Origin: Thermoplasmata archaeon
GTDB taxonomy: Archaea > Thermoplasmatota > E2 > JACPAO01 > JAHFTW01
Length of the DNA: 64,000 nt
Assembly (NCBI GenBank): GCA_023269235.1
Contig: JAHFTW010000006.1
Location: 1 to 64,000, forward strand
Reading direction: 5' to 3'
In this document: positions 1 to 15,444 of the stretch, one piece after another
How the letters are laid out: every line of letters begins with the position of its first letter
How positions within the stretch are numbered: position 1 is the stretch's first letter
Position numbers and translations under genes: made by a program
Notes under the pieces: generated by a model
Seen by the model: only the letters and a program-made list of their open reading frames with translations
Told to the model about the DNA's origin: nothing
Database searches by the model: none

Positions 1-142
1 CGCCGAGGCCGATGCCGGCCCCTGCAACTCCAGCGAGCGCGCCGAGGTCGCGGAGGAGCCCCTTCAGCGTCGAGGAGAGACCGGCGACGACGCTCGACGC
101 CTTGTCGTCGGCCCGAAGGGAGATCTCTTCGGCGAAGCTCAC
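1..142 (-). CDS. Tape measure protein, variant A (N-terminal fragment)
   Basis: Only the first 47 codons are visible; the gene continues left out of the window. It opens with GTG at 142, just after the GT stop at 146, the same position as the complete tape measure gene at 56824. The first 39 or so residues match that copy with a few substitutions (for example SFAEEI against SFVEEI), then the sequences part: variant A goes into a Gly/Ala-rich GAGIGLG stretch where variant B has VTVGFAGL. Tape measure proteins set tail length and sit inside the tail tube. The family assignment rests on the homologous copy and the gene order. Confidence 0.8.
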   Translation of the reverse strand, partial: MSFAEEISLRADDKASSVVAGLSSTLKGLLRDLGALAGVAGAGIGLG

Positions 143-145
143 GGC

Positions 146-885
146 TCAGTCCTCCGGTGACGCACCTTCGGAGCGCTCCTCCCTGCGCTCGTCGTAGATC
201 TCGAGCACCTCGTTCTCCGCGACCTGGAAGAGCGCGAGGACGTTCGGCGTGACGTCGATGCGGAGCCATCGAGCGGTCGTCTCGACCGCGCCGTAGTCGA
301 TGGCGTACGCGCCCCCGAAGCCGGCCCGGAGCTGTCGACCGGCGGCACGGACGAGAGCGAGAGCAGCCCAGGCGTCAGGGGAGAGAACGCCCGCGATGCG
401 CTCGAGCTCGACCTCGCGCGCGCAGCGGCCGCGCGTCTCGCGACACGGCCCCTCATCCTCGTCGGCCCCCCGGACCCCAAGGTCCATCCGAGCGAGGAAG
501 CGGCAGTCGTCGCAGGGCGGGCGGCCGTCGGCGCGGTAGTCAATCCGTACCGCCCTCTTCAGTTTCCCTTCTCGACCTCGAAGCCCTTGCCCTCTTCCTT
601 CCTGGCCTCCTTCGCCATGGAGAGGACGTACTCCGAGAGGCCGACGGTCCGCTTGATGACGGCCCGGGCATCGCCCGGCTTCAGGCCGCGGAGCGGCTCC
701 TCGCCGGTGTCCGTACGCCACGAGCCGATGGCGAGGCGCGCGACCTCGGCGCCGAACTCGACGTCGTCGGCGACCGGACCGTCCGGGCCCTTCTTCGCGC
801 CGACGTTGCGGGCGGCTTCCTGGTAGAGCTGATCGGAGATGGCCACGATCTCGAGCGTGTGGCCGTGTTTCGTTTTGAATTCCAT
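146..885 (-). CDS. Tail assembly chaperone GT fusion, made by -1 frameshift (copy A)
   Basis: This is the predicted long product of the tail chaperone locus. Translation starts at ATG 885 as G, slips one base back on G GGA AAC (568-562) and continues in the T frame to the stop at 146, giving 246 aa. Order (tail tube, G, GT, tape measure) and arrangement match lambda V-G-GT-H, where GT recruits the tape measure for tail tube assembly. The T part holds two Cys pairs (PPCDDC and, 20 residues on, C-x6-C) that could bind a metal. It differs from copy B at scattered residues, mainly in the stretch GGAYAIDYGAVETTA, next to a different tape measure. Confidence 0.82.
559..885 (-). CDS. Tail assembly chaperone G (copy A)
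   Basis: Protein of 108 aa from ATG 885 with a strong ribosome site (AAGGAGGGCAC) to TGA 561-559. It lies between the tail tube gene and the tape measure gene, the place of lambda G, which coats the tape measure during tail assembly. The slippery heptamer directly precedes its stop codon. Compared with copy B it differs at six residues near the C-terminus (G/I, GL/DK, V/I and E/V changes), although the DNA upstream of position 800 in gene order is identical. The role comes from synteny and the frameshift, not from recognisable residues. Confidence 0.8.
   Translation of the reverse strand: MEFKTKHGHTLEIVAISDQLYQEAARNVGAKKGPDGPVADDVEFGAEVARLAIGSWRTDTGEEPLRGLKPGDARAVIKRTVGLSEYVLSMAKEARKEEGKGFEVEKGN
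562..568 (-). promoter_or_regulatory. -1 ribosomal frameshift slippery heptamer GGGAAAC (copy A)
   Basis: On the minus strand the zero-frame codons are AAG GGA AAC TGA. The heptamer G GGA AAC fits X XXY YYZ and can re-pair as GGG AAA. The -1 frame then stays open from CTG (562-560) to the stop at 146. Lambda G/GT uses the near-identical GGGAAAG. The stop codon next to the site ends the short product. Confidence 0.85.
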
Positions 886-913
886 GTGCCCTCCTTCAGT
901 GGGAGGGGCGGAC

Positions 914-946
914 GACGTCCTTCGGTCCCGGGAGGGACAGGACGTC
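914..946 (-). terminator. Stem-loop after the tail tube gene (copy A)
   Basis: Nested inverted repeat: outer arms GACGTCC/GGACGTC (914-920, 940-946), inner arms GTCCC/GGGAC (925-929, 934-938), loop GGGA. It lies between the tail tube stop (969) and the ATG of G (885). There is no U-run, so it may be an attenuator or mRNA-stabilising element rather than a full terminator. It is conserved in copy B at 57596-57628. Confidence 0.5.
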
Positions 947-968
947 GAGACGCCGCCGCCCTCCCGGT

Positions 969-1946
969 TCAGTACTTCGTTCCTTCGATGCCGTTCTTGA
1001 TGACGAACTTGATCTGGCTTCCCTCGACGGTGTCCTTCGACGCCGTGAAGGGGAGCGAGAGCGCGAGGCTCTTCGGGGTCGACGCCTTCGGGTAGGAAAC
1101 CTGCAGCTTCACGCGCGGGAGGACGAGCTGGAGGCTCCTGACCGCGGAGATGGTCCATGTGAAATCGAAGGCGACGAGCGTGCCGGCGATCGCCTTGTCG
1201 AGGAACGTCGCGGGGTCGTCGAACCAGACGTCGACGTTGCCGGTCACGCGCTGGATCCCAGCGGAGACGCCGATGCGCTCGCCGGCCGAGTCGAGACTCC
1301 GAAGGTCCCGATCGACGTCGTTCGCGATGTTGACCTGGAGGCGCGTGATCCGGCCGACCGGGGCGCCGTCCATTTTGATGTTCGCGGCGGTCAGGAGCCG
1401 GTGATGCAGCTCGGTCCCGCCGGTCCAGTCGTCGGGCGTCGTGAAGTTCGAGACCGAGGCGAGGGCGTTGACCTTCTTCCCGACGACGCCGCACTGCACC
1501 TGGAAGAAGCCCTTGTTCCGGATCTCGAAGCCCTTCGTATCGAAGGTGCAGCCGGGCAGGATCTTGAACTTCGGCGTGTCGAGGGCGAGGTAGGTCTCGA
1601 TCGTGTAGGAGGGGAGAGCGCCCGCGATGGTCTTCGCCGTGTGGACGAAGTCCGGCGTCGTGCCCGTCGAGGCGAGCGAGCGCGTGATCGCCTTCGCGAA
1701 GATCGGCGCGCTCTCGAGCGTCAGGTTGTGGCGGAACGAGCCGCCGGCGTCGATGTCGCCGTCGACCGCGTCCTTCGAGTTGGCGTCGCCGCTGAACGAG
1801 TCGCTCTGGAGCTGCTCGACCGAGCCGTCCAGCTCCTCGCCGACGATCGCGATCTTGCGCCCGGCCGTCGCCGCGGCCAGCGTGCCCCAGGCCGTCTCGG
1901 CCCCGAGCGTGATGTAGGAAAGAGATCCGGGGGGGATGTTCGCCAT
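969..1946 (-). CDS. Major tail tube protein (copy A)
   Basis: Protein of 325 aa that should polymerise as the siphovirus tail tube. Start ATG 1946 follows a strong AAAGGAG site, and the gene has its own 120 nt leader, as expected for a highly expressed virion protein. It begins with a typical tail-tube N-terminus (SLSYITLGAETAWGT), is rich in beta-prone segments, has no membrane segment, and sits directly upstream of G/GT and tape measure, the position of lambda V. The C-terminal portion (YPKASTPKSLALSLPF) resembles the Ig-like or tube-core strands of this family. An identical copy lies at 57651-58628. Confidence 0.8.
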   Translation of the reverse strand: MANIPPGSLSYITLGAETAWGTLAAATAGRKIAIVGEELDGSVEQLQSDSFSGDANSKDAVDGDIDAGGSFRHNLTLESAPIFAKAITRSLASTGTTPDFVHTAKTIAGALPSYTIETYLALDTPKFKILPGCTFDTKGFEIRNKGFFQVQCGVVGKKVNALASVSNFTTPDDWTGGTELHHRLLTAANIKMDGAPVGRITRLQVNIANDVDRDLRSLDSAGERIGVSAGIQRVTGNVDVWFDDPATFLDKAIAGTLVAFDFTWTISAVRSLQLVLPRVKLQVSYPKASTPKSLALSLPFTASKDTVEGSQIKFVIKNGIEGTKY

Positions 1947-2067
1947 GGCGGCGCGCTCCTTTCGGTTCGGAGCACGCTGCGTTGCGGTGGCTCGTCGGGT
2001 TCTCTGTGGATTCCGTGGCGGCGGGAGGACGCTGCGTAGCGGTGCCTCTCGTCACCGTGGCTTCGTG

Positions 2068-2214
2068 TCAGACCTGCCGGAGCACCTCATCCGGTTTCCC
2101 GGCGATGTGGACTTCGACCTTCGGCACGCCGCCGAGGCCGTCGAAATGCAGGGTCAGGCTCCCGCGGAAGTGCCGCGCGAGGAGCTTCTCGATCAGATCG
2201 ATGATCGCCTTCAC
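2068..2214 (-). CDS. Small tail-module protein, 48 aa (copy A)
   Basis: GTG start at 2214 overlaps the TGA of the upstream gene (GTGA), the coupling used throughout this operon, and the frame runs to TGA 2070-2068. The product begins VKAIIDLIEKLLARHFRG and looks like an amphipathic helix followed by a short beta part. I do not recognise a family. The position between the tail terminator-like gene and the tail tube suggests a minor tail role. It is repeated unchanged at 58750-58896. Confidence 0.6.
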   Translation of the reverse strand: MKAIIDLIEKLLARHFRGSLTLHFDGLGGVPKVEVHIAGKPDEVLRQV

Positions 2215-2654
2215 GCCGCCGCCTTCTGGATGACGAGGGACACTGAGAGGACTGCGGCGGCGCCATCGGTCTCGTACTCTTCGACTTCGCCGCTCGAGAC
2301 TTCCCAGGTCCAGAGCGGCGGGATCGCCGAGCGCTGCCCGTCGACCCGGGCATCGACCCGGCCGAGGATCTCGAACACGCTCGCGACTGCGTCCGGTCCA
2401 CCGCGCCCGTTTCGGTCGACGATGTAGACCTCGAAGAGGTGGAGCCTGTGCCGGTACGAGCTCCCGAGCTCCTCGTCCTCGTAATCGTGGAACTCGCTGT
2501 AGCGGACGCCGATCGCCGGGAGGTTCCCGTTCGCGTCGCGGTTGACGAGGGTCCGAAGGGACGTCGAGGGGAGCACCTCGGCCACGCCGCAGTTGTCGGT
2601 TCCGGCGATGAGCGAGACGAGCTCGGCCTGCGCGAGCGAGCGGGGATCGCTCAT
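2211..2654 (-). CDS. Tail terminator/completion-like protein (copy A)
   Basis: Protein of 147 aa, overlapping the previous gene by ATGA. It has alternating beta and helix, no Cys cluster and no membrane segment. The order connector, HK97 gp10-like, this gene, tail tube matches the slot where siphoviruses encode the tail terminator (lambda U type), which caps the growing tail tube. The RHRLHLFEVYIVDRNGRGG stretch and helical C-terminal half fit that fold only loosely, so this call is positional. Confidence 0.55.
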   Translation of the reverse strand: MSDPRSLAQAELVSLIAGTDNCGVAEVLPSTSLRTLVNRDANGNLPAIGVRYSEFHDYEDEELGSSYRHRLHLFEVYIVDRNGRGGPDAVASVFEILGRVDARVDGQRSAIPPLWTWEVSSGEVEEYETDGAAAVLSVSLVIQKAAA

Positions 2655-3436
2655 CCGCGCGCTCCGGAGTCAGGCGTCCCGCCGGTGGGGGGCGTCGGGG
2701 ACGTGTCAGATCCGCCGGCGTTCACGTACCACATGAGGTAGCGCTTCGAGAGGTCGCGCGCCCACTCGGGGCGCCATTCGAGGAAGCCGTACTTCCGGAG
2801 CGTCACGCTCCTGACGGCGGCGGCGATACGCTCGGCGCCTCGCGTGCCGCGGGCGTAGGTGCTCCGCGCGGCCGTCCGGTTGCTCCCCCACCCGGTTTTC
2901 GAGCGGCTCCGGATCCGGGCTCCCGTCACCATGCGGCTCTTCCGATAGATCCCAGGCCCGTCCTCTCCGCCCATGACGAAGCGGCTCCCCGGGTAGCGCG
3001 CCTGGATCGCTTCCTTCCCACGCGGGAAGGCACGGACTTCGGTCTGCGAGAGGGGCGGGCTCAGTGGGATCAGGAGCCAGCGCTTTTTCGGGCGGATCGT
3101 CATTCCGCGGTTCAGGGCGCGGCCATAGGGGACGTTCGTGCCGATGTCGGTCCCGGTCGCGTCCGCCTTGTAGGCGATCGAATTGCTCAGGCGGCGCGTG
3201 TCGAGGAGCGCCTGTCCGCCGGCGCGATAGGCCCGCGCCCAACTCGACGGGGCCGGCCAGTGTCCGATGTTCGTCCGCAGGCCCCGCGTGACGAGGGTCA
3301 TCGCGCGGTGCCCGAGGGCGGCGTAGGCCTCCTGCCGCCGCTGCCCGCGCTTCACCATCGCGTCGAGCTTCTGCACCATGGCGGCGCTCCCGCCGGAGTA
3401 GCTCGCGCGGAGGATGAGCGCGTCGTGGCTCTGCAC
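2651..3436 (-). CDS. HK97 gp10-like / virion morphogenesis protein (copy A)
   Basis: Protein of 261 aa. GTG 3436 starts three bases past the upstream stop; a longer open frame extends upstream but overlaps the preceding gene. The central segment ALNRGMTIRPKKRWLLIPL resembles the conserved motif of phage virion morphogenesis and HK97-gp10 proteins that complete the head-tail joint. The N-terminal 100 residues are helical and basic. The last 20 residues are Pro/Gly/Thr-rich and probably disordered. Confidence 0.65.
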   Translation of the reverse strand: MQSHDALILRASYSGGSAAMVQKLDAMVKRGQRRQEAYAALGHRAMTLVTRGLRTNIGHWPAPSSWARAYRAGGQALLDTRRLSNSIAYKADATGTDIGTNVPYGRALNRGMTIRPKKRWLLIPLSPPLSQTEVRAFPRGKEAIQARYPGSRFVMGGEDGPGIYRKSRMVTGARIRSRSKTGWGSNRTAARSTYARGTRGAERIAAAVRSVTLRKYGFLEWRPEWARDLSKRYLMWYVNAGGSDTSPTPPTGGTPDSGARG

Positions 3437-3438
3437 GC

Positions 3439-4068
3439 CTACTCCCCTCCGAGCGGCCCGAAGACCTCGGGCTCGGAGTAGACCCGGATCTCGCCGGGGC
3501 TGTCGCTGCTGCCGGAGGGCGAGACGGGGAGGAGGGGCGTCGGACCCATGATCTTCTCGAGCCAGCGGATATGCGCCTTCACGAGGATGTCGAGCGCGTC
3601 GGGGACGTCGTTCTCTTTTCGGCCCCGGAGCCGCAGCTTCGCGAAGTCGATCGCGATGGGCTCGAGGACGGCGAGGAGCCACGGGTCGGTGATGCCGGTC
3701 CCGGTCGGGAGGTAGCGCGCGACGTCGGAGGAGACCGCCCGGCGGACGGCGTCGAGGACCTCGGCGTCGATCGACCGGTTGTCGGCCGTCGCAGAGATCG
3801 CGCCCGAGGAGAGGATGGGATCGAAGACGATCTCGTCCGCCCCCTCGGTCCCGGTGCCGCTCGACAGGGTCCAGCCGGTCTCGGTCAGCACGGCGTTGAC
3901 GTAGACCTTCACCGTCGTCGCCTGGAGGAACGGGGTCAGGAAACGGTCCTTCACGCCGTCGGCATTCCCGAGCGCGCGCGGGCGGAGCGGGTCGTTCGTG
4001 AGCTGCGCCTGCGCGTCGCGCGGAAGGCCGACGATGAGAGAGGCGCGGGAGAGGAGGAGCGCCGTCAC
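3439..4068 (-). CDS. Head-tail connector protein, DUF1320-like (copy A)
   Basis: Protein of 209 aa, GTG start at 4068 in a GTGA overlap. Residues about 110-165 (VARYLPTGTGITDPWLLAVLEPIAIDFAK in short segments, then a helical stretch ending in WLEKIMG) look like the helical connector family that covers the portal exit (DUF1320/gp16-like). An inserted beta segment (VKVYVNAVLTETGW) and a Ser/Pro-rich tail are additions. Its place between lysis-like genes and gp10 fits a head-completion role. Confidence 0.6.
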   Translation of the reverse strand: MTALLLSRASLIVGLPRDAQAQLTNDPLRPRALGNADGVKDRFLTPFLQATTVKVYVNAVLTETGWTLSSGTGTEGADEIVFDPILSSGAISATADNRSIDAEVLDAVRRAVSSDVARYLPTGTGITDPWLLAVLEPIAIDFAKLRLRGRKENDVPDALDILVKAHIRWLEKIMGPTPLLPVSPSGSSDSPGEIRVYSEPEVFGPLGGE

Positions 4069-4316
4069 GAGTAGACCTCGGAGGGCTCCGCTTCGACGGC
4101 CGCGAGCGTCAGGATGACCGACGGCTCGCCGTCCGTTGCGGCCGAGAAGTCGACGGCCTGCGTGAGGATCTCGCCGTCAGGCGTCGCGCCGAAGCTCACG
4201 TGCCCGCCGGGGAGGACGAGGGAGCAGCGATCGTGCTGCCTGCCGATCCGGACCTCGCTGCCGCGAGCTCCGAAGACGTAGGACCAGGCCGACTCCTTCC
4301 GCCGCGTGCAGGTCAC
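4065..4316 (-). CDS. Hypothetical protein, 83 aa, beta-rich (copy A)
   Basis: GTG 4316 overlaps the stop of the NlpC/P60 gene (GTGA), and the stop overlaps the next start in the same way. The product contains EVRIGRQHDRCSLVLPGGHV and ends in a run of beta-prone residues. I do not recognise a family. A small head-tail or lysis accessory protein is possible from context. Confidence 0.55.
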   Translation of the reverse strand: MTCTRRKESAWSYVFGARGSEVRIGRQHDRCSLVLPGGHVSFGATPDGEILTQAVDFSAATDGEPSVILTLAAVEAEPSEVYS

Positions 4317-4786
4317 GGGACGAGCCTCCTGACTCCGCGGAAGTCGGAGCGGTAGGCGATCCGGTCCAGCTTCACGAAGGCCGAGGGGCAGTCTCCATTC
4401 GTATTCGAGCCGCCGCCGTTCGCGCCCATGACGAGCCCACCGCCGAGGCAGAGCGTGACGTGCCGGATGTGCGAGGGCTGCCCGTAGAACGCGAGGTCGC
4501 CGAGGCGCGCGTCCTCGATCGGGACCGGCTTCGCCATGTCCCACAGGGCCGCCGCGGTGCGGTCCGGAGCCGTGGCCTGGAGAATGCCGAGCCGGACGAG
4601 GCAGATCTGCACGAGGCCCGAGCAGTCGACGCCGGTCCCGGCCGTCACGCCCTTCGGGGGATCGTTCGGAGGCCAGTGGTCGAGCGCGTCCTTCGGCGCG
4701 CCGGCACCCCAGCAGTAGCGCGTACCGACCCACCGAAGGAGGTCGACGATCCGTTCGTCGAGGACGTCGAGCTTGAGCCGCGTCAT
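4313..4786 (-). CDS. NlpC/P60 family peptidoglycan hydrolase (copy A)
   Basis: Protein of 157 aa covering one NlpC/P60 domain. The catalytic Cys is in TGVDCSGLV (Cys55) and the catalytic His in SHIRHVTLCL (His109). LGDLAFYGQ before the His is typical of the fold. The family cleaves D-gamma-glutamyl-meso-DAP or related peptide bonds in cell wall. There is no signal peptide, so release would need a holin or the tail. Neighbours are membrane and coiled-coil proteins, which argues for an endolysin; alternatively it is a tail peptidase like GTA gp14, although it sits far from the tail-tip genes. ATG 4786 overlaps the upstream stop (ATGA). Confidence 0.85.
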   Translation of the reverse strand: MTRLKLDVLDERIVDLLRWVGTRYCWGAGAPKDALDHWPPNDPPKGVTAGTGVDCSGLVQICLVRLGILQATAPDRTAAALWDMAKPVPIEDARLGDLAFYGQPSHIRHVTLCLGGGLVMGANGGGSNTNGDCPSAFVKLDRIAYRSDFRGVRRLVP

Positions 4787-5124
4787 GGCGTCACCCCCGA
4801 TTCCTCGAGCCGCTGCGTCAGCGCGTCGAACTCGTGCCTCAGCTCTTCATGGTCCTGGAGCAGGCGCGCGTAGTCGTTCCGGAGCTGCCCGTTCAGTTCC
4901 TTCTCGGAGAGGTACTTCTCGCGCCACTCGTTCACTTCCCTGCGGAGGGAGCCGATCTCGGCCTTGAGCGCAGCCGTCTCCGCGTGAAGCTCATTGCGCA
5001 GCGTCGTCGCGAAGTCCTCGCGGCTCCGGCGCCAGCCGAAGGCGCGGTCGAGGAGCTTCCCGAGGAAGACGAAGACCGACCCCGCCGCGGCGACGAGGGC
5101 CGCGTCGCGCGCCATATCGCTCAC
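4783..5124 (-). CDS. Membrane-anchored coiled-coil protein, candidate inner-membrane spanin (copy A)
   Basis: Protein of 113 aa. After GTG 5124 (GTGA overlap) comes a hydrophobic N-terminal segment (LVAAAGSVFVFLGKLL, about residues 11-27), then an uninterrupted charged helix with heptad character to the C-terminus. One N-terminal anchor plus a long periplasmic coiled coil is the plan of Rz-type i-spanins. The next gene left is the NlpC/P60 hydrolase and a lipoprotein gene lies at 6610-7140. An ATG in frame at 5115 is a possible alternative start. Confidence 0.55.
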   Translation of the reverse strand: MSDMARDAALVAAAGSVFVFLGKLLDRAFGWRRSREDFATTLRNELHAETAALKAEIGSLRREVNEWREKYLSEKELNGQLRNDYARLLQDHEELRHEFDALTQRLEESGVTP

Positions 5125-5591
5125 GCCTCCTCCCGGACGGGAGGCTTCCCCATCTTCACGTAGGCGAGGCTCTGGGCGAGCGCGAGGACGATGTCTACGC
5201 TGGCGGGGCCGTAGTGCCCGGTCGCGACCGCGCGGCAGAGGCCGACGACCGACCATGTCGCCGCCGCCGCGAGCGCGCACTGGCGCCGAAGGCGCGGCAT
5301 GTCGCGGAGCACGGCGAGGAGCTGGACGGCTCCGCCGAGGGCGAAGAGGAGGCGGACCGCCGCTTCGAGGAACGGGTCCGGCAGGGCGCCGATGGCCGGG
5401 ACGACGTCGAAGATCGACAGGTCGGCGCCCGTGGCGAGCGCCGACCAGAGGATGGCGGAGAGAGCCGAGACGATCTCGGAAAGGTCGGTCTCACGGCGGA
5501 GGAGGAGACGAATCAGTTGGGACACGATCCGCCTCCTCTCGGTCTGCCAGCGGCCATCCGGGCCGGCGAACTCTGAGCCGACTGCATGCAC
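5121..5591 (-). CDS. Multi-pass membrane protein, holin candidate (copy A)
   Basis: Protein of 156 aa from GTG 5591. Three hydrophobic segments are visible (near residues 42-65, 75-95 and 105-125: AILWSALATGADLS, LLFALGGAVQLLAVL, ALAAAATWSVVGLC), with an Arg-rich stretch (PRLRRQ) between the second and third. Size, topology and the hydrolase two genes on fit a holin, but no family signature is recognisable. Confidence 0.5.
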   Translation of the reverse strand: MHAVGSEFAGPDGRWQTERRRIVSQLIRLLLRRETDLSEIVSALSAILWSALATGADLSIFDVVPAIGALPDPFLEAAVRLLFALGGAVQLLAVLRDMPRLRRQCALAAAATWSVVGLCRAVATGHYGPASVDIVLALAQSLAYVKMGKPPVREEA

Positions 5592-5592
5592 G

Positions 5593-5925
5593 TCAGGCCC
5601 CGGCCGAGGCCGTCGGCGGCTTCTCGAGAGCGACGTCGGAAAGCCAGAAGTCGAGCCGGTCGAGGAGAGCGCGGGAGATGAGCCCGACGCCGAACGCGAT
5701 CGCCGCCGTCGCCTCGGGGCTCTGCACGACCGGGACGAAGGTCGAGAGGTAGCCGAGGATCACCGCCGCGCCGCCCTTCAGGAAGCTCTTCTGGCGGCGC
5801 GCCCACGTCGCCCAGCTCCATCCCACCGAGGAGCCGGCGGGGCTGACGGACGGGTTCAGCGGCGCGGGCTCGGTGCCCGCTCGGATGAGCTCGTTCGGCG
5901 GTTCGGCCGGAGGCTGCGCGCTCAC
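5593..5925 (-). CDS. Small membrane protein, holin or antiholin candidate (copy A)
   Basis: Protein of 110 aa; GTG 5925 is the first start after the upstream stop at 5937. A Pro-rich N-terminus is followed by two hydrophobic stretches (GGAAVILGYLSTFVPVV and AIAFGVGLISRALL) separated by a short polar turn. It lies two bases from the next membrane protein gene. Paired small membrane proteins beside a hydrolase suggest a holin/antiholin set, an inference only. Confidence 0.5.
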   Translation of the reverse strand: MSAQPPAEPPNELIRAGTEPAPLNPSVSPAGSSVGWSWATWARRQKSFLKGGAAVILGYLSTFVPVVQSPEATAAIAFGVGLISRALLDRLDFWLSDVALEKPPTASAGA

Positions 5926-5936
5926 GTCGTCAGCCT

Positions 5937-6326
5937 CTACGTGCGAGGGTCCGGGAGGGCCGCGACCTCCGCGTCGAGCGCGAGGATCTCGGCGAGCGTC
6001 CAGCGCTCCTTCGCCGGCTGGCCCTCGATCAGGGCGCGGATCTTCGGCACGCCGACTTTGATTGCGCCGACGACGAAGGGGAGCCAGGCGGCCGGGCAGA
6101 GGATCGTCGCGCCGGCGGCGAGGAGCCCGGGGAGGAGGTCGAGCCAGACGCCCGCGGCCGCGGAATGGACCTCGGTGATCGGTGCAGCCGCCATGGCGAG
6201 GGCCGTCGTCTGTTGCTCGACGGTGGGCGAGAGGACCTCGACGACGACGACCGTCGGGTTGAGCCGCTTGAAGTCGGCCGCCCATTCCTTCGGCGTGCCG
6301 ACGGGCATCGTGACGCAGAGGGTCAT
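5937..6326 (-). CDS. Hypothetical protein, 129 aa, with hydrophobic centre (copy A)
   Basis: ATG 6326 overlaps the upstream stop (ATGA). The first half is soluble-looking (GTPKEWAADFKRLNPTVVVVEV); residues about 60-95 form a hydrophobic stretch (GVWLDLLPGLLAAGATILCP and following) that could be one or two membrane passes; the C-terminus is helical and charged. Not recognised. It belongs to the membrane-protein cluster around the lysis hydrolase. Confidence 0.5.
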   Translation of the reverse strand: MTLCVTMPVGTPKEWAADFKRLNPTVVVVEVLSPTVEQQTTALAMAAAPITEVHSAAAGVWLDLLPGLLAAGATILCPAAWLPFVVGAIKVGVPKIRALIEGQPAKERWTLAEILALDAEVAALPDPRT

Positions 6327-6613
6327 GCGGCACCTCCGACCCTCGGAGGCCAACTCCACTGCCCGGGTTCCGTGCCTTCGCGGGCGCTCGTCACCCAGAG
6401 CGTGTCGTGACCGTCGAGGAAGGCCTGGCCATTGACGCCGGCGACGCCGGGACCGTACTCGTCCGGCCAGATTCGAACGATGATGAGCGGGACGATGTCG
6501 CCTTCGGTCGAGGCGTTCCCCGTTTCGTTGCCGCTCCGCCAGTTCTGGTTGATGCGCGCGGCGTCGTTCGCGGAGAGCTTGTAGTGAACGATCCTGCCGA
6601 TCGTCGGGGTCAT
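6323..6613 (-). CDS. Hypothetical protein, 96 aa (copy A)
   Basis: ATG 6613 overlaps the lipoprotein stop (ATGA). The sequence begins MTPTIGRIVHYKLS and has a single-domain, beta-rich look (GRIVHYKL, PLIIVRIW, DTLWVTS). The opening resembles small phage proteins found beside lysis genes that start with GRIVHY, but I know no function for them. No membrane segment. Confidence 0.6.
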   Translation of the reverse strand: MTPTIGRIVHYKLSANDAARINQNWRSGNETGNASTEGDIVPLIIVRIWPDEYGPGVAGVNGQAFLDGHDTLWVTSAREGTEPGQWSWPPRVGGAA

Positions 6614-7140
6614 ACGGCACCTCCGGGCGGGAACGCGGTATCGATGAATGCTCGGATCGCCGCCGCCCGCTCGGGCTTCATGGCGTTCAGCTCGACGGCG
6701 AGCGTGAGGAAGGCTCGCCCGGAGGCCACGAGCGGCCGCAGGACGTCCATGGGCGCCGCCCCGACGGATGCCGCCTTCCACGTGGCGAGAGCGTGGGCCG
6801 ACGCCTGGAGGCCCGCCTTGACGTCGAGCAGTACCGCCCGATGGGCGGCGTGAACTTCCGGCGTCTCGGTCCCGACTCGCGCGTCATGCGCGGCGCTCGC
6901 CTGGAGGTAGGCCGTCTTCATCTCCGAGACGATGTCGGCGACCGTGTCCTGCGCCTCGACGACCGGAGCCGCGACCACGGCGCCCGTCGACGTCGTGACG
7001 GTTCCGGACGAGCAGCCGAAGGCGGCGGCCAGGAAGAGCACGCCGAGGACGAGAAGAAGGGCGGGCAGGGCCAGAAGGCCCCGCCCGCGCAGCAGGAGAA
7101 ACCGGCGGGGAGAGAGCCGCCGGGGGGAGGTCGCGTTCAC
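6610..7140 (-). CDS. Lipoprotein, candidate outer-membrane spanin (copy A)
   Basis: Protein of 176 aa from GTG 7140 (GTGA overlap). Basic N-terminus (RRLSPRRF), a hydrophobic core of about 25 residues, then AAFGC-SSG, a plausible lipobox with Cys at about residue 43 followed by Ser/Gly/Thr. After processing it would be an outer-membrane-anchored helical protein. With the coiled-coil membrane protein two kb downstream it could form a two-component spanin; it is longer than typical Rz1 proteins. Confidence 0.6.
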   Translation of the reverse strand: MNATSPRRLSPRRFLLLRGRGLLALPALLLVLGVLFLAAAFGCSSGTVTTSTGAVVAAPVVEAQDTVADIVSEMKTAYLQASAAHDARVGTETPEVHAAHRAVLLDVKAGLQASAHALATWKAASVGAAPMDVLRPLVASGRAFLTLAVELNAMKPERAAAIRAFIDTAFPPGGAV

Positions 7141-7724
7141 GCCGGCAGCCCCTTCAGCTTGCGCTGGGCCGCGACGTAGCTCCGGAGGGTCTGGGTCACG
7201 TAGAGCTCGGGCCTGAACCGGCCGGTGCCGAAGTCGGGGAAGACGCGCGGGCAGATGCCCCAGAGGACGAGCGCGTACATCAGCACGGGCTCGACCGCTG
7301 CGTAGTCGACGGGGAGCACGCTGTAGTACGCCTCGCGGAGCGCGAGCTCCTCGGGCGTGGCGCCGAGCGAACCGTCAACGTGCCGGCCCTGCTTCGCGTA
7401 GATGAGCGCTTCCTGGGCGCTCGAGGCGAACGGCAGCACGTCGGCGGGCGGGTCGAGCGGAGCGATCCCGAGGGCCTGACTCGTGTGGAGCGGGCGCCAG
7501 TGGTGCCCCTCGCCGAAGAGCGCGTAGGAGCGCCACTCGGACGGGATGAAGCCGTGCCCCTCGGGAACCGGAACGCTGGCGCAGAAGGCGTCGAGGCGCG
7601 CGGCGGTCTCCTCCGCGGTGTGCCCGTCGGCGAGGTACTGCTCGACGGCCCCGCGGTCGGGGTAGGCGTTGGCCTTCCAGCCGAATCCGGCGTGAAGGAT
7701 CTCGTTCACGGTCTCGTAGGTCAT
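7137..7724 (-). CDS. Hypothetical protein, 195 aa (copy A)
   Basis: ATG 7724 has a clear ribosome site (GGAGGGAAA). It looks soluble and mostly helical, with Trp/Tyr-rich C-terminal segments (YALVLWGICPRVFPDF). Not recognised. It lies between the putative lipoprotein and a signal-bearing protein in the head module. The right copy is cut at the window end. Confidence 0.6.
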   Translation of the reverse strand: MTYETVNEILHAGFGWKANAYPDRGAVEQYLADGHTAEETAARLDAFCASVPVPEGHGFIPSEWRSYALFGEGHHWRPLHTSQALGIAPLDPPADVLPFASSAQEALIYAKQGRHVDGSLGATPEELALREAYYSVLPVDYAAVEPVLMYALVLWGICPRVFPDFGTGRFRPELYVTQTLRSYVAAQRKLKGLPA

Positions 7725-7749
7725 GGGCTTTCCCTCCTATCGAGCTGAA

Positions 7750-8574
7750 TCAGGGAAGCGTCTGATAGGTGACGTACACCGTCGCGGCAAAGGCGGTCAC
7801 CGTCGAGAGGTTCGTGGTCGTCTTGACGAAGTGCGAATTGATGGGGGTGGCCGTCTTGTAGAAGAGAGCGCCGTCGAGGTTCGTCGCGCCGCGCTCGGCC
7901 GTCGCGTCGCCATAGAGGGCAACGGCCTTCCCGTCGGAGGCGACGATCCAGTCGACGTATCCGGTGCCGACGGTCCCGAGGGAAACGGTGAGCGCGTTCG
8001 CGCTCGTGTCGGCAGCCGTCACGTCCACGTAGGTCGAGGTCACGCGCGAATTGGCGGGCAGGGTGCCGATGGCGATGTCTCCCGTCAGATTCGCGCCGAG
8101 TGCAGCAACCGCAGCGTTCGTAATCGCGTACTTGATGACGCCGAACAGCGGCGCCGTGCTCGTCGCATTCGCGATCGAAGAAGTCCACGGGCCGGGGTCG
8201 GTTGGCAGGTCCATGAAGACGGCGGAAAGGGTGCCGCTCGAGCGCGCGGTGACGTTTGCGCGGAGGAACGGGAACGCGGTCCCGCGGTATGCCTCGCCGG
8301 TCGACGTCGGGTTCGTGACCGTCGCGAGCGTGATCCAGGGACCGGCCGAGGCCATGGCCCCCTGAACGACGACGGTCGCCGAGGAGGTCGACGCGGAGTA
8401 GACGTGGACCTGCGCTCCCGGCACGGTGCCGAAGGCGAGCGGGATCCCCGCGCCCGTCGTGATGACGGCGTTCCGGTTCGTCCAGGTCGTCGCCGTCGCA
8501 GTGGGCGCGACGAGGCTGACGATGACGATGAGCGCGACGGCGAGCGCCGCCAGGCGGATGCGGTTCGGCTTCAT
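7750..8574 (-). CDS. Predicted exported or membrane-anchored beta-rich protein
   Basis: Protein of 274 aa from ATG 8574 (ATGA overlap). The first 30 residues form an export signal or anchor: basic start, hydrophobic core AALAVALIVIVSLVAP, then TATA-TT. The rest is Thr/Ala/Val-rich with many short beta-prone segments, as in head fibres or decoration proteins. A signal peptide is odd for a virion gene placed two genes after the capsid; a lysogenic or superinfection role at the cell surface is an alternative. Confidence 0.6.
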   Translation of the reverse strand: MKPNRIRLAALAVALIVIVSLVAPTATATTWTNRNAVITTGAGIPLAFGTVPGAQVHVYSASTSSATVVVQGAMASAGPWITLATVTNPTSTGEAYRGTAFPFLRANVTARSSGTLSAVFMDLPTDPGPWTSSIANATSTAPLFGVIKYAITNAAVAALGANLTGDIAIGTLPANSRVTSTYVDVTAADTSANALTVSLGTVGTGYVDWIVASDGKAVALYGDATAERGATNLDGALFYKTATPINSHFVKTTTNLSTVTAFAATVYVTYQTLP

Positions 8575-8768
8575 GCGGTCTCCTTCGGACCCGGCTCGGG
8601 GGCCGGCTTGGGCGGCTTCGGAGCCGCGGTCTCGGTCAGGCAATGCGCGACGTCGGGCAGGTACGCGCCGAGCTCCTCCTCCGTGACGGTGTCGGTCGGA
8701 GGCGAGAACGACCGCGTCCCTGCGGCGTCGGAGAGGGTGAAGGGCTTCGTCACGCGGAAGGTCTTCAT
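8571..8768 (-). CDS. Small protein, 65 aa, Pro-rich tail
   Basis: ATG 8768 lies shortly after the capsid gene. The first 45 residues read like a small fold (KTFRVTKPFTLSDAAGTRSF then VTEEELGAYLPDVA), then a Pro/Lys tail (PKPPKPAPEPGPKE). Small proteins directly after capsid genes are often accessory capsid factors. Not recognised. Confidence 0.55.
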   Translation of the reverse strand: MKTFRVTKPFTLSDAAGTRSFSPPTDTVTEEELGAYLPDVAHCLTETAAPKPPKPAPEPGPKETA

Positions 8769-8787
8769 TCGAACCTCAGAGGCAGGG

Positions 8788-8819
8788 TGCCGGGCCCCCT
8801 CTCACACGGAGACCCGGCA
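8788..8819 (-). terminator. Stem-loop after the capsid gene
   Basis: Arms TGCCGGG (8788-8794) and CCCGGCA (8813-8819), 7 bp with an 18 nt loop, starting 12 nt after the capsid stop on the minus strand. No U-run. Probably an attenuator or mRNA 3'-end stabiliser. Confidence 0.4.
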
Positions 8820-8831
8820 TCCCCGCTGTCA

Positions 8832-9983
8832 TCAGACGTCGAGCTTCGTGTCGAGCCAGAGGTAGGCGGCGTTGCTCTTCGTGACGATCGGCTGCCAGGA
8901 GTCCGTCCACTTCAGGACGTTCGCCCCGGTGCCGACGCGGTCGTCGCGGTAGGGGAGGAGGTCCGGGAACCCTTCGCGGAAGCAGGAGATCGCGAACCGC
9001 GGCGCCACGATGGCGCCCTGCCCCGTGCAGTAGAGGCCGGCGAAGTCGCCCCAGATCTGCGTCGGGTCGTCCTCGCTGTCGAGCTCGACGGTCTTCGCCG
9101 CGTTCCCGACCGCGATCGCGATCTGGAAGAGCGCGGCGAGGAAGTCGCGCGTGACCGGGACGGCGCGGCCGGTGCCGGTGTTCGCGGTGTTCGCGTAGGA
9201 GCGGATCTGGGCGTTCACCATGAGGGTCGCCTCGGTGTCGCCGCCCATCGCGAAGAGGTCCGGGTCCTGGAGGGTCTTCAGGAAGATCGCGCGCCGCGCC
9301 GCCCAGAAGGCGTTGACCGGCTGGGAGCTCGCGTGCGACCACTGCGTCGTGGTGGCGAGCGTCTCGGAGAAGCCCGCGGCGTACTTCGTCGCGTCGAGCG
9401 CGACGGCGGCGTAGTCGGCCTCTTCCTCGGCCGCGAGCGAGGCCTGCGCGCGGTCGAGCTTGTAGGCCTCGATGTTGAGGTTCAGCGCGGCGGACGCGGC
9501 GCTCACTTCGCGGTTCTCCGTGAGGACCTCGATGCCCTTGACCTTCGTCGTCACCTCGCCGAACTTGATCCGCACGTCCATGCGGCGGACCGTCTGGCCG
9601 ACGTTGAGGGTCGAGCCCTCGGGCTCCACGAAGAAGCCCTCCTTCCCGTAGATCGGGTAGTAGCCCTTCTCGTCCGGGCCGGAGGAGAACTTCGGGAAGA
9701 TCTGCGTCCCGATCATGGCCTGCTGCGGTCCCACGCTCACGGCCATCGGGACGGGGAAGCGCTTCGGCGGCGAGAAGCTCGGGAGACCGGCGAGCGCGGC
9801 CTCGGCCTTCTTCATGAGGTCGAGGTGACCGGCGATCTCGGGGATCTTCGAGAGCCGCTCGGTCACCCACTTGACGTAGTCGGGGTCCTGGACGCGGAAG
9901 CCGGCGTTCGGCCGACGGAAGTACCCGAGGTGACCGTTCGGGAGCTTCATCGACTGGCCCGGCTGGAAGGTGGTCTTCTTCAT
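8832..9983 (-). CDS. Major capsid protein
   Basis: Protein of 383 aa, ATG 9983 with GGAGCAG upstream. It follows protease, scaffold and decoration-like genes, the usual place of the capsid gene. Visible traits are an N-terminal arm, a beta-rich middle (VRIKFGEVTTKVKGIEVLTENREV), helical EAYKLDRAQASLAAEEEADY, and a segment with RSYANTANTGTGRAVPVT. This fits an HK97-fold coat protein of about 42 kDa. No N-terminal delta domain is evident beyond about residue 60. Confidence 0.8.
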   Translation of the reverse strand: MKKTTFQPGQSMKLPNGHLGYFRRPNAGFRVQDPDYVKWVTERLSKIPEIAGHLDLMKKAEAALAGLPSFSPPKRFPVPMAVSVGPQQAMIGTQIFPKFSSGPDEKGYYPIYGKEGFFVEPEGSTLNVGQTVRRMDVRIKFGEVTTKVKGIEVLTENREVSAASAALNLNIEAYKLDRAQASLAAEEEADYAAVALDATKYAAGFSETLATTTQWSHASSQPVNAFWAARRAIFLKTLQDPDLFAMGGDTEATLMVNAQIRSYANTANTGTGRAVPVTRDFLAALFQIAIAVGNAAKTVELDSEDDPTQIWGDFAGLYCTGQGAIVAPRFAISCFREGFPDLLPYRDDRVGTGANVLKWTDSWQPIVTKSNAAYLWLDTKLDV

Positions 9984-9999
9984 GCTCTGCTCCTGCCGC

Positions 10000-10368
10000 C
10001 TACCGGATCCACCGGACGAGGTAGGACTTGCCGACGACGGTCGCGGCCTCGACGGCCTGCGCCCGCGTGAAGGCGGTCGGCACGACGGGATCGGTCTCCT
10101 TCACGAGCCGACCATCGGCGCCGAGCTTCAGGTAGTTCTTCTTCGCCCACGCCTCGCCGGCGATGGCGGGGGACTCGCCGGCGAACTCGTAGACGGTGAT
10201 GGGGGCGTCGATGGCAGCGCCCTCCGGCGCGAAGCCGGTGCCGAGCAGGCCTGCGGCTCCGAGGATGGCCTTGCCGGCGTCGTCCATCTCCACAACCGCG
10301 TTGTCGGGGATGAGCACGGCGGCCACCATGCCGAAGCGGGCGCCGTTGTGGTTCACGCGGCCCGGCAT
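10000..10368 (-). CDS. Capsid decoration-like protein
   Basis: Protein of 122 aa, ATG 10368 with a GGAGAACTGAC site, between the protease/scaffold gene and the capsid gene. Gly/Ala-rich with beta segments, no transmembrane segment. The slot equals lambda D or the DUF2190-type decoration proteins that cement capsids. The assignment is mostly positional. Confidence 0.55.
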   Translation of the reverse strand: MPGRVNHNGARFGMVAAVLIPDNAVVEMDDAGKAILGAAGLLGTGFAPEGAAIDAPITVYEFAGESPAIAGEAWAKKNYLKLGADGRLVKETDPVVPTAFTRAQAVEAATVVGKSYLVRWIR

Positions 10369-10369
10369 G

Positions 10370-10975
10370 TCAGTTCTCCTCTCCGGCGGCGAGGCCGCCG
10401 GCGTCCACGATCGCGATGGCCTGGGAGACCGTGCAGCCGAGGGCCGCGACGGTCTGCGCGATCTCGTGCGTGTACTCGGGGGCGGTGTCGAAGCCGTGGA
10501 ACTGGCCGGCGCCGACGAAGCCGGGGGAGCCGCCCCTCTCGAAGATCGGCTCCACGGGAGCGACGGCCTTCATCGCGGCGAGCTCGGCCTCGAAACCGAC
10601 GGGGTCCGCCTCGATGCCGGGGCGGAGGAACTTCGCATGGGCCCGGGGGACCTTGCCGAGCCCGATGGCCCGCTCGAGGAGCCCGTCGACCTTCGCCTTC
10701 TTCTCGGCGGCGGCCGTGGCCTCGGCGATCGCCTTCGCGTTCGCGGCGGCCATCTCCTTGAAGACGGTCGCCGTCGACTCGGCGACGATCTTCTGGACGT
10801 CGCCCAGCGTCACGCCGGGCGCCGGCGGGGGCGGCGTCTCGACCTTCGGCTCGGGCTTGGGGGCGGGCGGCGCGGCGGCAGGTGCCGCGAGCTCCGCGAG
10901 CCTCCGGTTGAGGTCGTCCTCGCTCGCGTTCTCCGCGAGACCGAGGAGCTTCAGGTTTTCGGGAGTCACCTTCAT
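10370..10975 (-). CDS. Nested in-frame scaffold protein
   Basis: Internal ATG at 10975 in the same frame as the protease gene, with an excellent site (AAAGGAGGAG, 5 nt before ATG). It would give 201 aa beginning MKVTPENLKLLGLAENASED, the helical scaffold part. Mu I/Z and lambda C/Nu3 use the same arrangement, where excess free scaffold is needed. Nothing else in this stretch explains so strong a ribosome site. Confidence 0.75.
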   Translation of the reverse strand: MKVTPENLKLLGLAENASEDDLNRRLAELAAPAAAPPAPKPEPKVETPPPPAPGVTLGDVQKIVAESTATVFKEMAAANAKAIAEATAAAEKKAKVDGLLERAIGLGKVPRAHAKFLRPGIEADPVGFEAELAAMKAVAPVEPIFERGGSPGFVGAGQFHGFDTAPEYTHEIAQTVAALGCTVSQAIAIVDAGGLAAGEEN

Positions 10976-11707
10976 GTGCTCCTCCTTTCGTGTGCTCGCC
11001 GGAACTGGCGAGGAAGTGGAGGTCGAGAGAGAAGAAGCCTCGCCGCCGGTCGCGGCACGCTGAGTCCCCTCCGGGGAGGCTGCGGGCACGGCGGCGAGAC
11101 TGGTCGGGATGACGAGACCTTCAGGGCCCGGGCGGAAGCCGAGGCCGTAGACCTTGCGGAGGTGCGACATCTCGACGACCTTGCCGAGCCCCTTCAGGCG
11201 CGGGAGGTTCGTGAGGGAGAGCTCCTTCGGCTGCACCGCGCGGAGGAAGCCGTCGCCGTCGATCCAGGCGCCGAAGCCGAGCGAGCGGCTCTTCCAGCGT
11301 TTTCCCGGATTGCAGGCCGCCCGGTACATCTCCTCGTCGGCGAGGTCGCAGAGCTGCCAGAAGGAGCCGTTCTCCTCGTAGCACTCGAGCACGTCACCGG
11401 GGCTCTCGGTCCCGCGGCCCGTGAAGCCGTGGTCGAAGAGGAGCGGGAAGAAGGCCGAGCGGATCAGCTCGTTCCCATTGACGACGCACATCGCGACGTC
11501 CTCGGGCATGACGCGCAGCGTCTCGCCCCATCCGATGTCGTGCTCGCCGAGGAGGAGCGAGCGCATCGCGCAGGGGAACTGAGCGTCCGGGTACTTGTCC
11601 TTGACGCTGGCGAGCGCCACGTCTCGCATCCCGTCGCGGTCGAAGGCGAGCGCGATCTCTCGCGTCTCGACCTTGTGCTTCGCGGGGTCGAAGAGCTCGT
11701 ACTTCAT
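10370..11707 (-). CDS. Mu gpI-like prohead protease with C-terminal scaffold
   Basis: Protein of 445 aa. Residues 1-190 look like the Mu gpI-type prohead protease: the segment PKELSLTNLPRLKGLG matches the family motif around LTNxPxLKGL. Residues 190-245 are a Ser/Thr/Pro linker. Residues 245-445 form a scaffold with a helical, charged middle (ATVFKEMAAANAKAIAEATAAAEKK) and a Pro/Ala-rich stretch. The protease matures the prohead and removes scaffold. ATG 11707 overlaps the upstream stop (ATGA). A nested start at 10975 gives scaffold alone. Confidence 0.75.
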   Translation of the reverse strand: MKYELFDPAKHKVETREIALAFDRDGMRDVALASVKDKYPDAQFPCAMRSLLLGEHDIGWGETLRVMPEDVAMCVVNGNELIRSAFFPLLFDHGFTGRGTESPGDVLECYEENGSFWQLCDLADEEMYRAACNPGKRWKSRSLGFGAWIDGDGFLRAVQPKELSLTNLPRLKGLGKVVEMSHLRKVYGLGFRPGPEGLVIPTSLAAVPAASPEGTQRAATGGEASSLSTSTSSPVPASTRKEEHMKVTPENLKLLGLAENASEDDLNRRLAELAAPAAAPPAPKPEPKVETPPPPAPGVTLGDVQKIVAESTATVFKEMAAANAKAIAEATAAAEKKAKVDGLLERAIGLGKVPRAHAKFLRPGIEADPVGFEAELAAMKAVAPVEPIFERGGSPGFVGAGQFHGFDTAPEYTHEIAQTVAALGCTVSQAIAIVDAGGLAAGEEN

Positions 11708-11997
11708 GCGGGCCTCCCAGAGAGCCAGACGTCCACCAACGCCTCGAGCTGAATGAAGGAATCCCCGCAGCCGGGCCGCTCACTGACGATGACGCGCTGC
11801 CATCCGGCGGCGAGGTAGCGGCGGCGAAGCTCCGTGGCGACGGCCACGTCGGGCTTGACCGGAAGCGGGACGACGACGTAGCCGGGGTCGGCGTCCATCG
11901 CGCTCCCGAGCATCCCCTCGACGAAGAGCTCGAGACTGTCGACGAGCGCGGTCTGCTCGGCGGTGAGGGGTGCGGGGGTGAAGGGAGAGCGCGCCAT
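11704..11997 (-). CDS. Hypothetical protein, 97 aa
   Basis: ATG 11997 overlaps the MuF stop by one base (TGATG). The sequence contains LRRRYLAAGWQRVIVSE, a helix-strand pattern, and shows no metal or membrane features. Its place between MuF and protease, with overlaps on both sides, suggests a small head-assembly factor. Confidence 0.55.
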   Translation of the reverse strand: MARSPFTPAPLTAEQTALVDSLELFVEGMLGSAMDADPGYVVVPLPVKPDVAVATELRRRYLAAGWQRVIVSERPGCGDSFIQLEALVDVWLSGRPA

Positions 11998-12842
11998 CAG
12001 TTCACCGCTCCGAGGTTCTTCAGCGCGTCAGGGACGAGCGAGGCGACGCGGTCAGCGTCCCAGCCGGAGGGGATCTCGACCTTCACGTCGCGGCCCCACG
12101 AACGCCGATAGCCGCCGTCGTCGACGTCGGCCTGGTCCATCTCCTCCGCGGTGCACCGGCAGTTCGGTCCCAGGGGAGGGAGGTACTTCCGGGCGCCCGG
12201 GTCGTCCTTCCGGAACACCATGCCGTCGAGCGCGAGATGGCTCGGGCGCGTGCGCGAATCGTTGATCGCGTCATAGAGCCAGAAGGGGGAGCGCTTGATC
12301 CACTCCCGGCTGAACATCTCCGCGTAGCGCCCGCCCGCCGTCGCCGCGGCGTTCGCGTTGCGGAAGACGAGGTCGGCGTACCACGGCGACCACTCCTCGC
12401 CCGTGAAGATGCGCACGCCCTGGTCCGCCCCGAACTGGTCGAGGAGCGACTGTGCCTTCGGCATCCACTGCGCGAGCGTCTCGCCCTGCGCGACCGCGTC
12501 GAAGAGCGAGCCGTAGATCTTCTGGACGAACTTCGTGTGCCAGACGTCCGCGAGCCGACCGGCCTGTCCCTTCAACTCGTCCGTCAGCGCGGCGAAGGTC
12601 TTCGAGTCGAGGATCTTCCGTTTCTTCCAGAGCGCGAGCGTGTCCTTCAGGGGCGGGACGACGACGTGCTCGGCAGGCGCGCCGAGGATCGCCTCCGTCC
12701 AGTCGTCGGACGTCAGGCCCGCGGCGAGAAACTCGACGAGGGAGCCGGTGGCCTCGTCCGCGCCGACCGCGGCGGAGGCGCCGAGGAACGCGAGGCCCGC
12801 GGGGAGCGGAGGAGGAGCGAGGGCGAGATGCACGGCGCTCAC
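11997..12842 (-). CDS. MuF-like minor head protein (SPP1 gp7 family)
   Basis: Protein of 281 aa with the family signature near residues 195-235: INDSRTRPSHLALDG, then LPPLGPNCRCTAEEM. Proteins of this family bind the portal and help package or eject DNA. The N-terminal two thirds is helical. GTG 12842 overlaps the portal stop (GTGA). The order terminase, portal, MuF, protease agrees with Mu-like head clusters. Confidence 0.88.
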   Translation of the reverse strand: MSAVHLALAPPPLPAGLAFLGASAAVGADEATGSLVEFLAAGLTSDDWTEAILGAPAEHVVVPPLKDTLALWKKRKILDSKTFAALTDELKGQAGRLADVWHTKFVQKIYGSLFDAVAQGETLAQWMPKAQSLLDQFGADQGVRIFTGEEWSPWYADLVFRNANAAATAGGRYAEMFSREWIKRSPFWLYDAINDSRTRPSHLALDGMVFRKDDPGARKYLPPLGPNCRCTAEEMDQADVDDGGYRRSWGRDVKVEIPSGWDADRVASLVPDALKNLGAVN

Positions 12843-14503
12843 CGGCCGCTCCTATCGTCACGGGCCTGCTCCAGGCCGTGCCCGGTCGACGCGACGAGGA
12901 CCGAGGTGAGCCGGTCCGCAAGCTCCTTCCCGTCGGGGCGGGTCCTCGCGCGCTGCACGACGCGGGTCAGCGCCTGGAAGGGGTTCGCGCCGTCGTTCAG
13001 AGCGTCGGCGAAGATCGCGCGGTACGGCCCGAGGAGCTCCTCCGCGATTCCTGTCGGCGCGCCGTCGGCGCCGAGGACAGGCGGCTTTCCGCCCGGGCCG
13101 AGCATCGGGAAGCGGACGACGTTCTCTCCGAGCTTCCCGCCGGACGTCGGCTCGGCTGCGGCAACGGGGGCCGCGAGCTGACGGCGGGTGAGGACGCGCT
13201 CGCCCGGGCGGGCCTGGCGGTAGCCGACGCGCTTCAGGAGCTCGGATTCGGGCGGCTCGGCCCCGGCGCTCACGATCAGGTTCGCGATCCGCCCTTCGGC
13301 CTCGCGGTCGATCTCCCTCGTCTGGTGCAGCGTGGGGACCGGCGTGTTCACCGCTGCGACCACCTCGCCGTAGTTCCTGACGACCATCGGCCGGACCCAC
13401 TTCGCTGCGAAGTCGACCGCCGCGCGCCGTAACTGCTGGGCGACGAGCCATTCGGCGACGCCCTGGGCCGCGACGTCGGAGGTCTTCGCGCCAGCGCCCT
13501 CGCGCGCGCCGAGAGCCTGCTCATGCCCGAGGAGGCACGCGGCGAAGGCCCGAAGGCAGAACTCCTGCGCCCGCTCGAGGGAATCGGGCTGGGCCGCCGA
13601 CATCACCGAGAGGAACTTCGCCTCGATGCCCTCCATCGGGCGGATGAGCGCTCCGGAGGAACCGAGCTTCGCGGCGACCTTCTCGGCCTCGGCGGCACCG
13701 TCCTTCAGGTTCGCGGCGTATCCGACGTCGAGGTAGGGGAGCGCGTAACGCTCGTTCAGCCGAGCCCACCAGCGGAGCCCGAACTGGTAGACGCACCAGG
13801 CCGTCCCGATCTGCCAGAGGAGCCCGCGCTGGTCGAGGGGATAGACGCCGCCGCCGTCCTCGAAGAGGAGCAGGCTCCCGGTCTCGACGAACGGCGCGAC
13901 CGGCACCGCCGTCCCGCCGCGGGCCTTCTGGAAGAAGCTGAACTCGAACGTCTTCGGGTCGAGGCGGAAGCGGTAGCCGGGGATCTCCTCGAAGGAGACG
14001 GCCCGCTCGAGGCCGCCGGGTCCGCTGCCAGCCTCGACTCGGAATGCGGCCGCGCCGAAGCCCGTGTGCTCGCGCCGTGCGAAGACGCGCAGCGCGTCCG
14101 GCATGAAGGGCCCGAGCTGGTCGGCGACGTAGGCCGCAACCTCGCGCCCGATGCGCGCCTCCGGCGTGAGGATCGTCTCGTCTCGCGCCGCGAGCGGCAT
14201 CGGTGCGAACTCCCACTCGGCCGACTCGATCGCCTCGCGGGACCTCCGGATCTGCGGGCCGGCGGCGCGCCCAGGCATCTCGTGGTAGAGCGCGAGGAGG
14301 TTCCGCGGATCCCCGCGACGCGCCTCGACCCGGTAGCGGAACCAAGCCTCCGGCGTGTATTCCTTCGGGATCGGGACGATCTCCGTCGTGATGTCCGTCT
14401 CGCGTTCGACTCCGGACGGTCGAGCGATCGAAGTCGGAGCGGCGGGCTTTTCTGCGAGGTCGCGGAGGATCGTGTCGAGCTGGAGCGAGAGCCAGTCGCT
14501 CAC
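12839..14503 (-). CDS. Portal protein (DUF935, Mu gp29-like)
   Basis: Protein of 554 aa that forms the dodecameric portal at the packaging vertex. Visible are the long family core (IPGYRFRLDPKTFEF, GLLWQIGTAWCVYQFGLRWW, RYALPYLDVGY) and the later helical ALGAREGAGAKTSDVAAQG region that typifies DUF935 portals. The start is GTG 14503, overlapping a stop at 14500. The length is normal for the family. The terminase genes lie upstream with four genes between. Confidence 0.88.
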   Translation of the reverse strand: MSDWLSLQLDTILRDLAEKPAAPTSIARPSGVERETDITTEIVPIPKEYTPEAWFRYRVEARRGDPRNLLALYHEMPGRAAGPQIRRSREAIESAEWEFAPMPLAARDETILTPEARIGREVAAYVADQLGPFMPDALRVFARREHTGFGAAAFRVEAGSGPGGLERAVSFEEIPGYRFRLDPKTFEFSFFQKARGGTAVPVAPFVETGSLLLFEDGGGVYPLDQRGLLWQIGTAWCVYQFGLRWWARLNERYALPYLDVGYAANLKDGAAEAEKVAAKLGSSGALIRPMEGIEAKFLSVMSAAQPDSLERAQEFCLRAFAACLLGHEQALGAREGAGAKTSDVAAQGVAEWLVAQQLRRAAVDFAAKWVRPMVVRNYGEVVAAVNTPVPTLHQTREIDREAEGRIANLIVSAGAEPPESELLKRVGYRQARPGERVLTRRQLAAPVAAAEPTSGGKLGENVVRFPMLGPGGKPPVLGADGAPTGIAEELLGPYRAIFADALNDGANPFQALTRVVQRARTRPDGKELADRLTSVLVASTGHGLEQARDDRSGR

Positions 14504-14643
14504 GCCGACGGCCTCCGCGCGCCGCCGAGGGCGAACGGCGAAGGACCGCGCAGGGTCGGGCCGTCTGCCACGCCTCGAACCTGCGCGCCGGGAGGAGGAG
14601 GTTCTAGGGGGTCTGCACCGTTGACGGGGCAGAGGAGAGCCAT
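14500..14643 (-). CDS. Possible 47 aa protein before the portal gene
   Basis: The stop at 14500 overlaps the portal GTG (GTGA), the signature of a real upstream gene in this phage. The nearest ATG in frame is 14643, giving MALLCPVNGADPLEPPPPG and a short basic tail. There is no clear ribosome site and the sequence is low in complexity, so this may be chance. If it is not a gene, 14504-14791 holds only a GC-rich hairpin. Confidence 0.3.
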   Translation of the reverse strand: MALLCPVNGADPLEPPPPGAQVRGVADGPTLRGPSPFALGGARRPSA

Positions 14644-14745
14644 GGGGCGCCCATAGGCGCCGGGGGGGATCGGAAGGCGGGAGAGGAGAGGGGAGGCCGG
14701 GGGGACGAGGGGCGGGAGACGGCAGGAGATGGCTAGAGACGGCAA

Positions 14746-14765
14746 CGCCCGCCGTGGGGCGGGCG
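14746..14765 (-). terminator. GC-rich hairpin upstream of the portal gene
   Basis: Perfect 8 bp stem CGCCCGCC/GGCGGGCG with loop GTGG, 27-46 nt after the stop of the 14792-15397 gene on the minus strand. No U-run. It could attenuate or process late mRNA. Confidence 0.45.
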
Positions 14766-14791
14766 CTACGTCCGGGGCTTGCCCTGTCGCG

Positions 14792-15397: not shown

Positions 15398-15415
15398 TTT
15401 GGCCTCCATACCTAT

Positions 15416-15444
15416 AATGTAATCCTAGCGTTAGGATATGTCAA
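15416..15444 (-). promoter_or_regulatory. Sigma70-like promoter with operator in the spacer
   Basis: Minus strand: TTGACA (15444-15439), 17 nt spacer, TACATT (15421-15416), then 6 nt to an ATG. The spacer holds an inverted repeat ATCCTA-ACGC-TAGGAT (15437-15422) that fills it, as expected for a repressor operator. A perfect -35 is striking in such GC-rich DNA. Confidence 0.75.

Follow-up and report, generated by a model that had tools for sequence, protein, structure and literature searches.

Contig C21 (109,270 bp), the first 64,000 nucleotides of which form the window, i.e. the whole stretch of DNA analysed here, is in our assessment (probability roughly 0.9) the circular or circularly permuted genome of a temperate siphovirus, walked 1.93 times during assembly, starting with a left tip that derives from a sister allele and sorted by mistake into an archaeal bin. 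The phage unit of 56,682 bp is apparently complete, and its repetition most likely exists in no real molecule. What is gained is the genome of a temperate phage without close relative in the collections searched.

An exact head-to-tail repeat of 51.8 kb

The initial annotation had described positions 1-7318 as recurring at 56683-64000, apparently identical past position 800, and had proposed a comparison over the full 56.7-kb unit. Ungapped alignment of 27-7318 with 56709-64000 in the window gave 99.23% identity, and at an offset of 56,682 we counted 73 mismatches across 1-7318, every one at or before position 799, with 800-7318 being identical. A self-comparison of the whole contig confirmed the repeat and extended it to 51,789 bp without a single mismatch or indel, leaving all differences within the first 799 bases. 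Chance is excluded as the source of a repeat of this length. The contig is divided as follows (no strand is assigned to these segments):

1..799, divergent left tip of C21 (variant A), the sole region where the copies differ, with 73 mismatches and no indels relative to 56683-57481
800..52588, common segment, first copy, equal to C21 57482-109270 over 51,789 bp
52589..57481, single-copy segment of C21, holding the bulk of tape-measure variant B (roughly codons 1-1412) and the upstream tail genes
57482..64000, common segment, beginning of its second copy, continuing to the C21 end at 109270 (equivalent to 52588, within the tape-measure gene)

Both ends of C21 lie in or beside the tape-measure gene, the left end carrying codons 1-47 and the right end, at about codon 1413, the last 341. 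Host flanks are absent from both ends, and all sequence in excess of one unit is that phage unit over again. The repeat was not found in any other readable contig of the bin, three contigs of 2 kb being given as N.

An exact head-to-tail repeat over nearly the whole unit and the lack of host flanks at either end are the marks of a concatenated circular viral genome. Like the concatenated viral contigs reported for CheckV and IMG/VR, C21 carries head-to-tail copies of one genome that share a consensus; unlike them, it comprises 1.93 copies and has one divergent tip, suggesting a strain bubble. In building CheckV, 6,543 contigs in which a duplication took up at least 20% of the length were removed, the cause given being assemblers that concatenate copies of one genome; 290 IMG/VR contigs of more than twofold the expected length, in which the genome recurred 2.0-6.8 times, were regarded as probable artefacts, and such contigs are flagged by a k-mer frequency above 1 (PMC8116208). 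Caution on artificial repetition in phage sequences is likewise advised in the curation review of Chen et al. (PMC7111523).

Of the two explanations put forward in the initial annotation, the one in which a mixed phage population was assembled in two rounds of the circle fits everything found. The sampled population would have contained at least two alleles of a tail segment that spans the tape-measure gene plus the two small genes upstream of it, and the assembly graph would have consisted of a shared segment of 51.8 kb and the alternative arms A and B, with 52589-57481 representing one arm of this bubble. We infer that the assembly path began in the tail end of A, crossed the shared segment, went on through B and the shared segment once more, and stopped at the A/B fork within the tape-measure gene. 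The exact repeat would then be a single consensus printed twice, in a contig that would subsequently have been put into the archaeal bin by error.

Scaffolds of the bin contain gaps of 10, 12 and 100 N as well as contig-end overlaps of 280-285 bp at 99.3% identity, which suggests that the bin was built from short reads, although these features do not identify the assembly program. A perfect duplication of 474 bp adjoins one of the N gaps. As short reads cannot span 51.8 kb, an exact repeat of that length is not resolvable with them. Long-read assemblers can wrap circles too, and the conclusion that the repeat is an artefact would stay the same. Further exact or near-exact duplications lie beside 10-N gaps in archaeal contigs of the same bin (C10:20841-21949 and C19:58952-60117) and are probably scaffolding artefacts.

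Many dsDNA phages replicate via head-to-tail concatemers, and C21 might be a real linear concatemer of this kind in which two alleles recombined. The unit is indeed seamless, with coding sequence running across the junction 57481/57482. Only reads longer than 51.8 kb could reveal a concatemer, however, whereas the bin resembles a short-read scaffold assembly, and the divergence is limited to one contig tip, making this origin very unlikely. We regard any real multi-unit array, be it of at least three copies or a concatemer, with one tail allele differing among otherwise identical copies as highly unlikely; if it existed, an exchange of tape-measure alleles would have been caught in progress.

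Divergence of the left tip

One relative, IMGVR_UViG_3300036987_000544 (L134, 27.5 kb), was recovered by searching viral_contigs with the tail tube protein. Its head and tail module is collinear with that of the phage and has the same gene order, but L134 is only moderately related, the comparison covering 16.2 kb of the structural region with amino acid identities of 67% for the tail tube, 61% for the tape measure (codons 415-1479) and 63-74% for the two chaperone-like genes. Used as queries against viral_contigs, the tape measure, the major head protein and the integrase retrieved no relative, so that neither variant can be set against an independent copy. The genes concerned are:

2..142, minus strand, tape-measure gene, variant A, first 47 codons, cut by the contig end; 78% amino acid identity to B over residues 1-45
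146..487, minus strand, tail gene upstream of the tape measure, variant A, probable tail assembly chaperone; its B copy at 56828-57169 matches PHROG 680 (tail; listed as tape measure)
559..885, minus strand, small upstream tail gene, variant A, probable tail assembly chaperone by position and homology to L134; B copy at 57241-57567, no PHROG match for 559..885
51563..56824, minus strand, complete variant B of the tape-measure gene, encoding 1753 aa; matches PHROG 10093 (tail length tape measure) at E 2.5e-10

Of the two tape-measure variants described initially, B is complete as stated and A is cut by the contig end, with only 47 codons of A existing. These 47 codons at a contig end do not establish a sharply different tape measure, nor do they establish the recent recombination that had been proposed on the same basis. 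The rest of variant A, past 799 bp, was searched for in the bin and not found, which counts against the preferred reading.

The divergent end is no entirely separate gene: variants A and B differ by about 9% over 800 bp, including both genes upstream of the tape measure, and the differences are substitutions only, with all frames open throughout. For the gene at 146..487 the mismatches are distributed 9/5/19 over the three codon positions, and in the two chaperone-like genes together 27 of 48 mismatches fall on third positions (P about 0.0009 against an expectation of one third). This bias and the lack of indels favour a real sister strain more than read error. Mismatch density is highest in the first 32 bases of C21, where the changes may reflect either sister-strain variation or read error.

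Alternatively, the phage could be circular with a single allele, its left tip having been corrupted by sequencing or assembly error and the wrap-around still being an artefact. All mismatches lie less than 800 bp from the contig end and are densest at its very start, which favours such a corruption, and while L134 is about equally distant from A and B elsewhere, the last visible residues of A (40-47) depart from both B and L134. Against this stand the third-position bias in two tail genes, the absence of indels and the frames that stay open, and we thus consider a merely corrupted tip hardly probable. With the sister-strain origin that we prefer, the tip provides a hint of allelic variation within a phage tape-measure segment; a search of the literature for hypervariable tape-measure genes yielded nothing specific.

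Attachment core, host and archaeal bin

The att core recognised near 43.1 kb in the initial annotation had been read correctly. It corresponds to the 3' portion of a gene for tRNA-Thr(CGT) and lies beside a tyrosine integrase:

39796..40419, plus strand, CI/LexA-like repressor; PHROG 4, E 8.5e-38
41374..42594, plus strand, tyrosine integrase; PHROG 1, Pfam PF00589
43103..43147, plus strand, attP core, 45 bp, 3' part of tRNA-Thr(CGT), anticodon loop through CCA; repeated at C21 99785-99829

An integrase adjoining an att core that exactly matches the 3' end of a tRNA is characteristic of tRNA-directed temperate phages, and temperate siphoviruses whose tyrosine integrase targets a tRNA gene have the same attP/integrase arrangement together with a CI/LexA-like repressor. 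Temperate siphoviruses also share the order of the tail genes, with two small genes ahead of the tape measure.

Integrase, repressor and an att core matching tRNA-Thr(CGT) would equally be present in a tandem of two related prophages within a host chromosome, with the att core near 43.1 kb forming the joint, as had been suggested, and the junction of a tandem lysogen would resemble attP. Two prophages, however, should give way to host DNA at 99.8 kb, whereas phage sequence continues there for another 9.4 kb to 109.27 kb, identical to 43.1-52.6 kb, which contradicts the proposed pair. Because phage sequence runs through both 43.1 and 99.8 kb, the att site rules out an array of just two prophages; at least three copies would be needed, and no observation calls for them. 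Moreover, no host DNA was seen past the outer att sites or anywhere else on C21, the carrying genome shows no tRNA gene acting as host attB, attL or attR, and the bin is archaeal with a tRNA-Thr(CGT) unlike the core. Tandem prophages are extremely unlikely on these grounds, and we continue with the assembly of a circular phage genome from a mixed population.

The 3' 33 bases of the att core occur exactly in only two genome_contigs records, both Acidobacteriota metagenome-assembled genomes (L053, L054); in both they end a complete tRNA-Thr(CGT), and the agreement with the phage covers 45 bp in total. Within the archaeal bin the core is found on C21 only, and in 98 relatives of the bin we detected neither the core, allowing up to 3 mismatches, nor a terminase. 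The phage helicase is a good match (52.5%) to that of Tunturi_5, a phage of the acidobacterium Tunturiibacter. Judging from the att core and this one helicase, the host of the phage is probably an acidobacterium.

The bin itself (G000, 26 contigs, 1.96 Mb) is archaeal. Its SSU rRNA (C9:234167-235636) scores 1453 bits with the archaeal model versus 1087 bits with the bacterial model, and it contains ribosomal protein L32e (C17:1209-1532), which among the control genomes was detected in archaea only. Its own tRNA-Thr(CGT) at C10:163457-163530 is intact; its T arm and acceptor stem set it apart from the phage core. The tetranucleotide correlation of C21 with the bin mean is 0.80, whereas 29 host pieces have a median of 0.98 and a lowest value of 0.875. 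As the bin is archaeal and the att core, of bacterial type, matches an Acidobacteriota tRNA-Thr(CGT) without a match elsewhere in the bin, C21 is probably misplaced. The contig accounts for 5.6% of the bin (109 of 1,959 kb), probably bacteriophage DNA counted almost twice, which the marker-based contamination estimate (0.34%) misses.

Gene content of the phage unit

Recognisable phage genes code for head, portal, terminase, tail, helicase, helicase-methyltransferase, repressor and integrase functions. Besides those listed above they include:

969..1946, minus strand, tail tube/minor tail protein; PHROG 290, E 5.6e-36; second copy at 57651-58628
8832..9983, minus strand, major head protein; PHROG 1005, E 2.6e-34
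12839..14503, minus strand, portal protein; PHROG 113
16160..17731, minus strand, terminase large subunit; PHROG 2; second copy at contig 72842-74413

The major head protein had no match among 50,697 phage records, and the other proteins tested against the phage collection gave matches below 60% identity. For the terminase, viral_contigs contained relatives at 29% identity only and genome_contigs none.

Three further reading frames on the minus strand were noted. At 28324-30879 an 851-aa protein combines helicase and N6/N4 DNA methyltransferase parts. A predicted 80-aa protein at 22507-22749 is rich in Ala, Tyr and His repeats and may not be a gene. The frame at 15616-16149 looks ParB-like and has one in-frame stop near its start, the same in both copies, which may be a real nonsense change, a sign that the start lies further in, or an assembly error.
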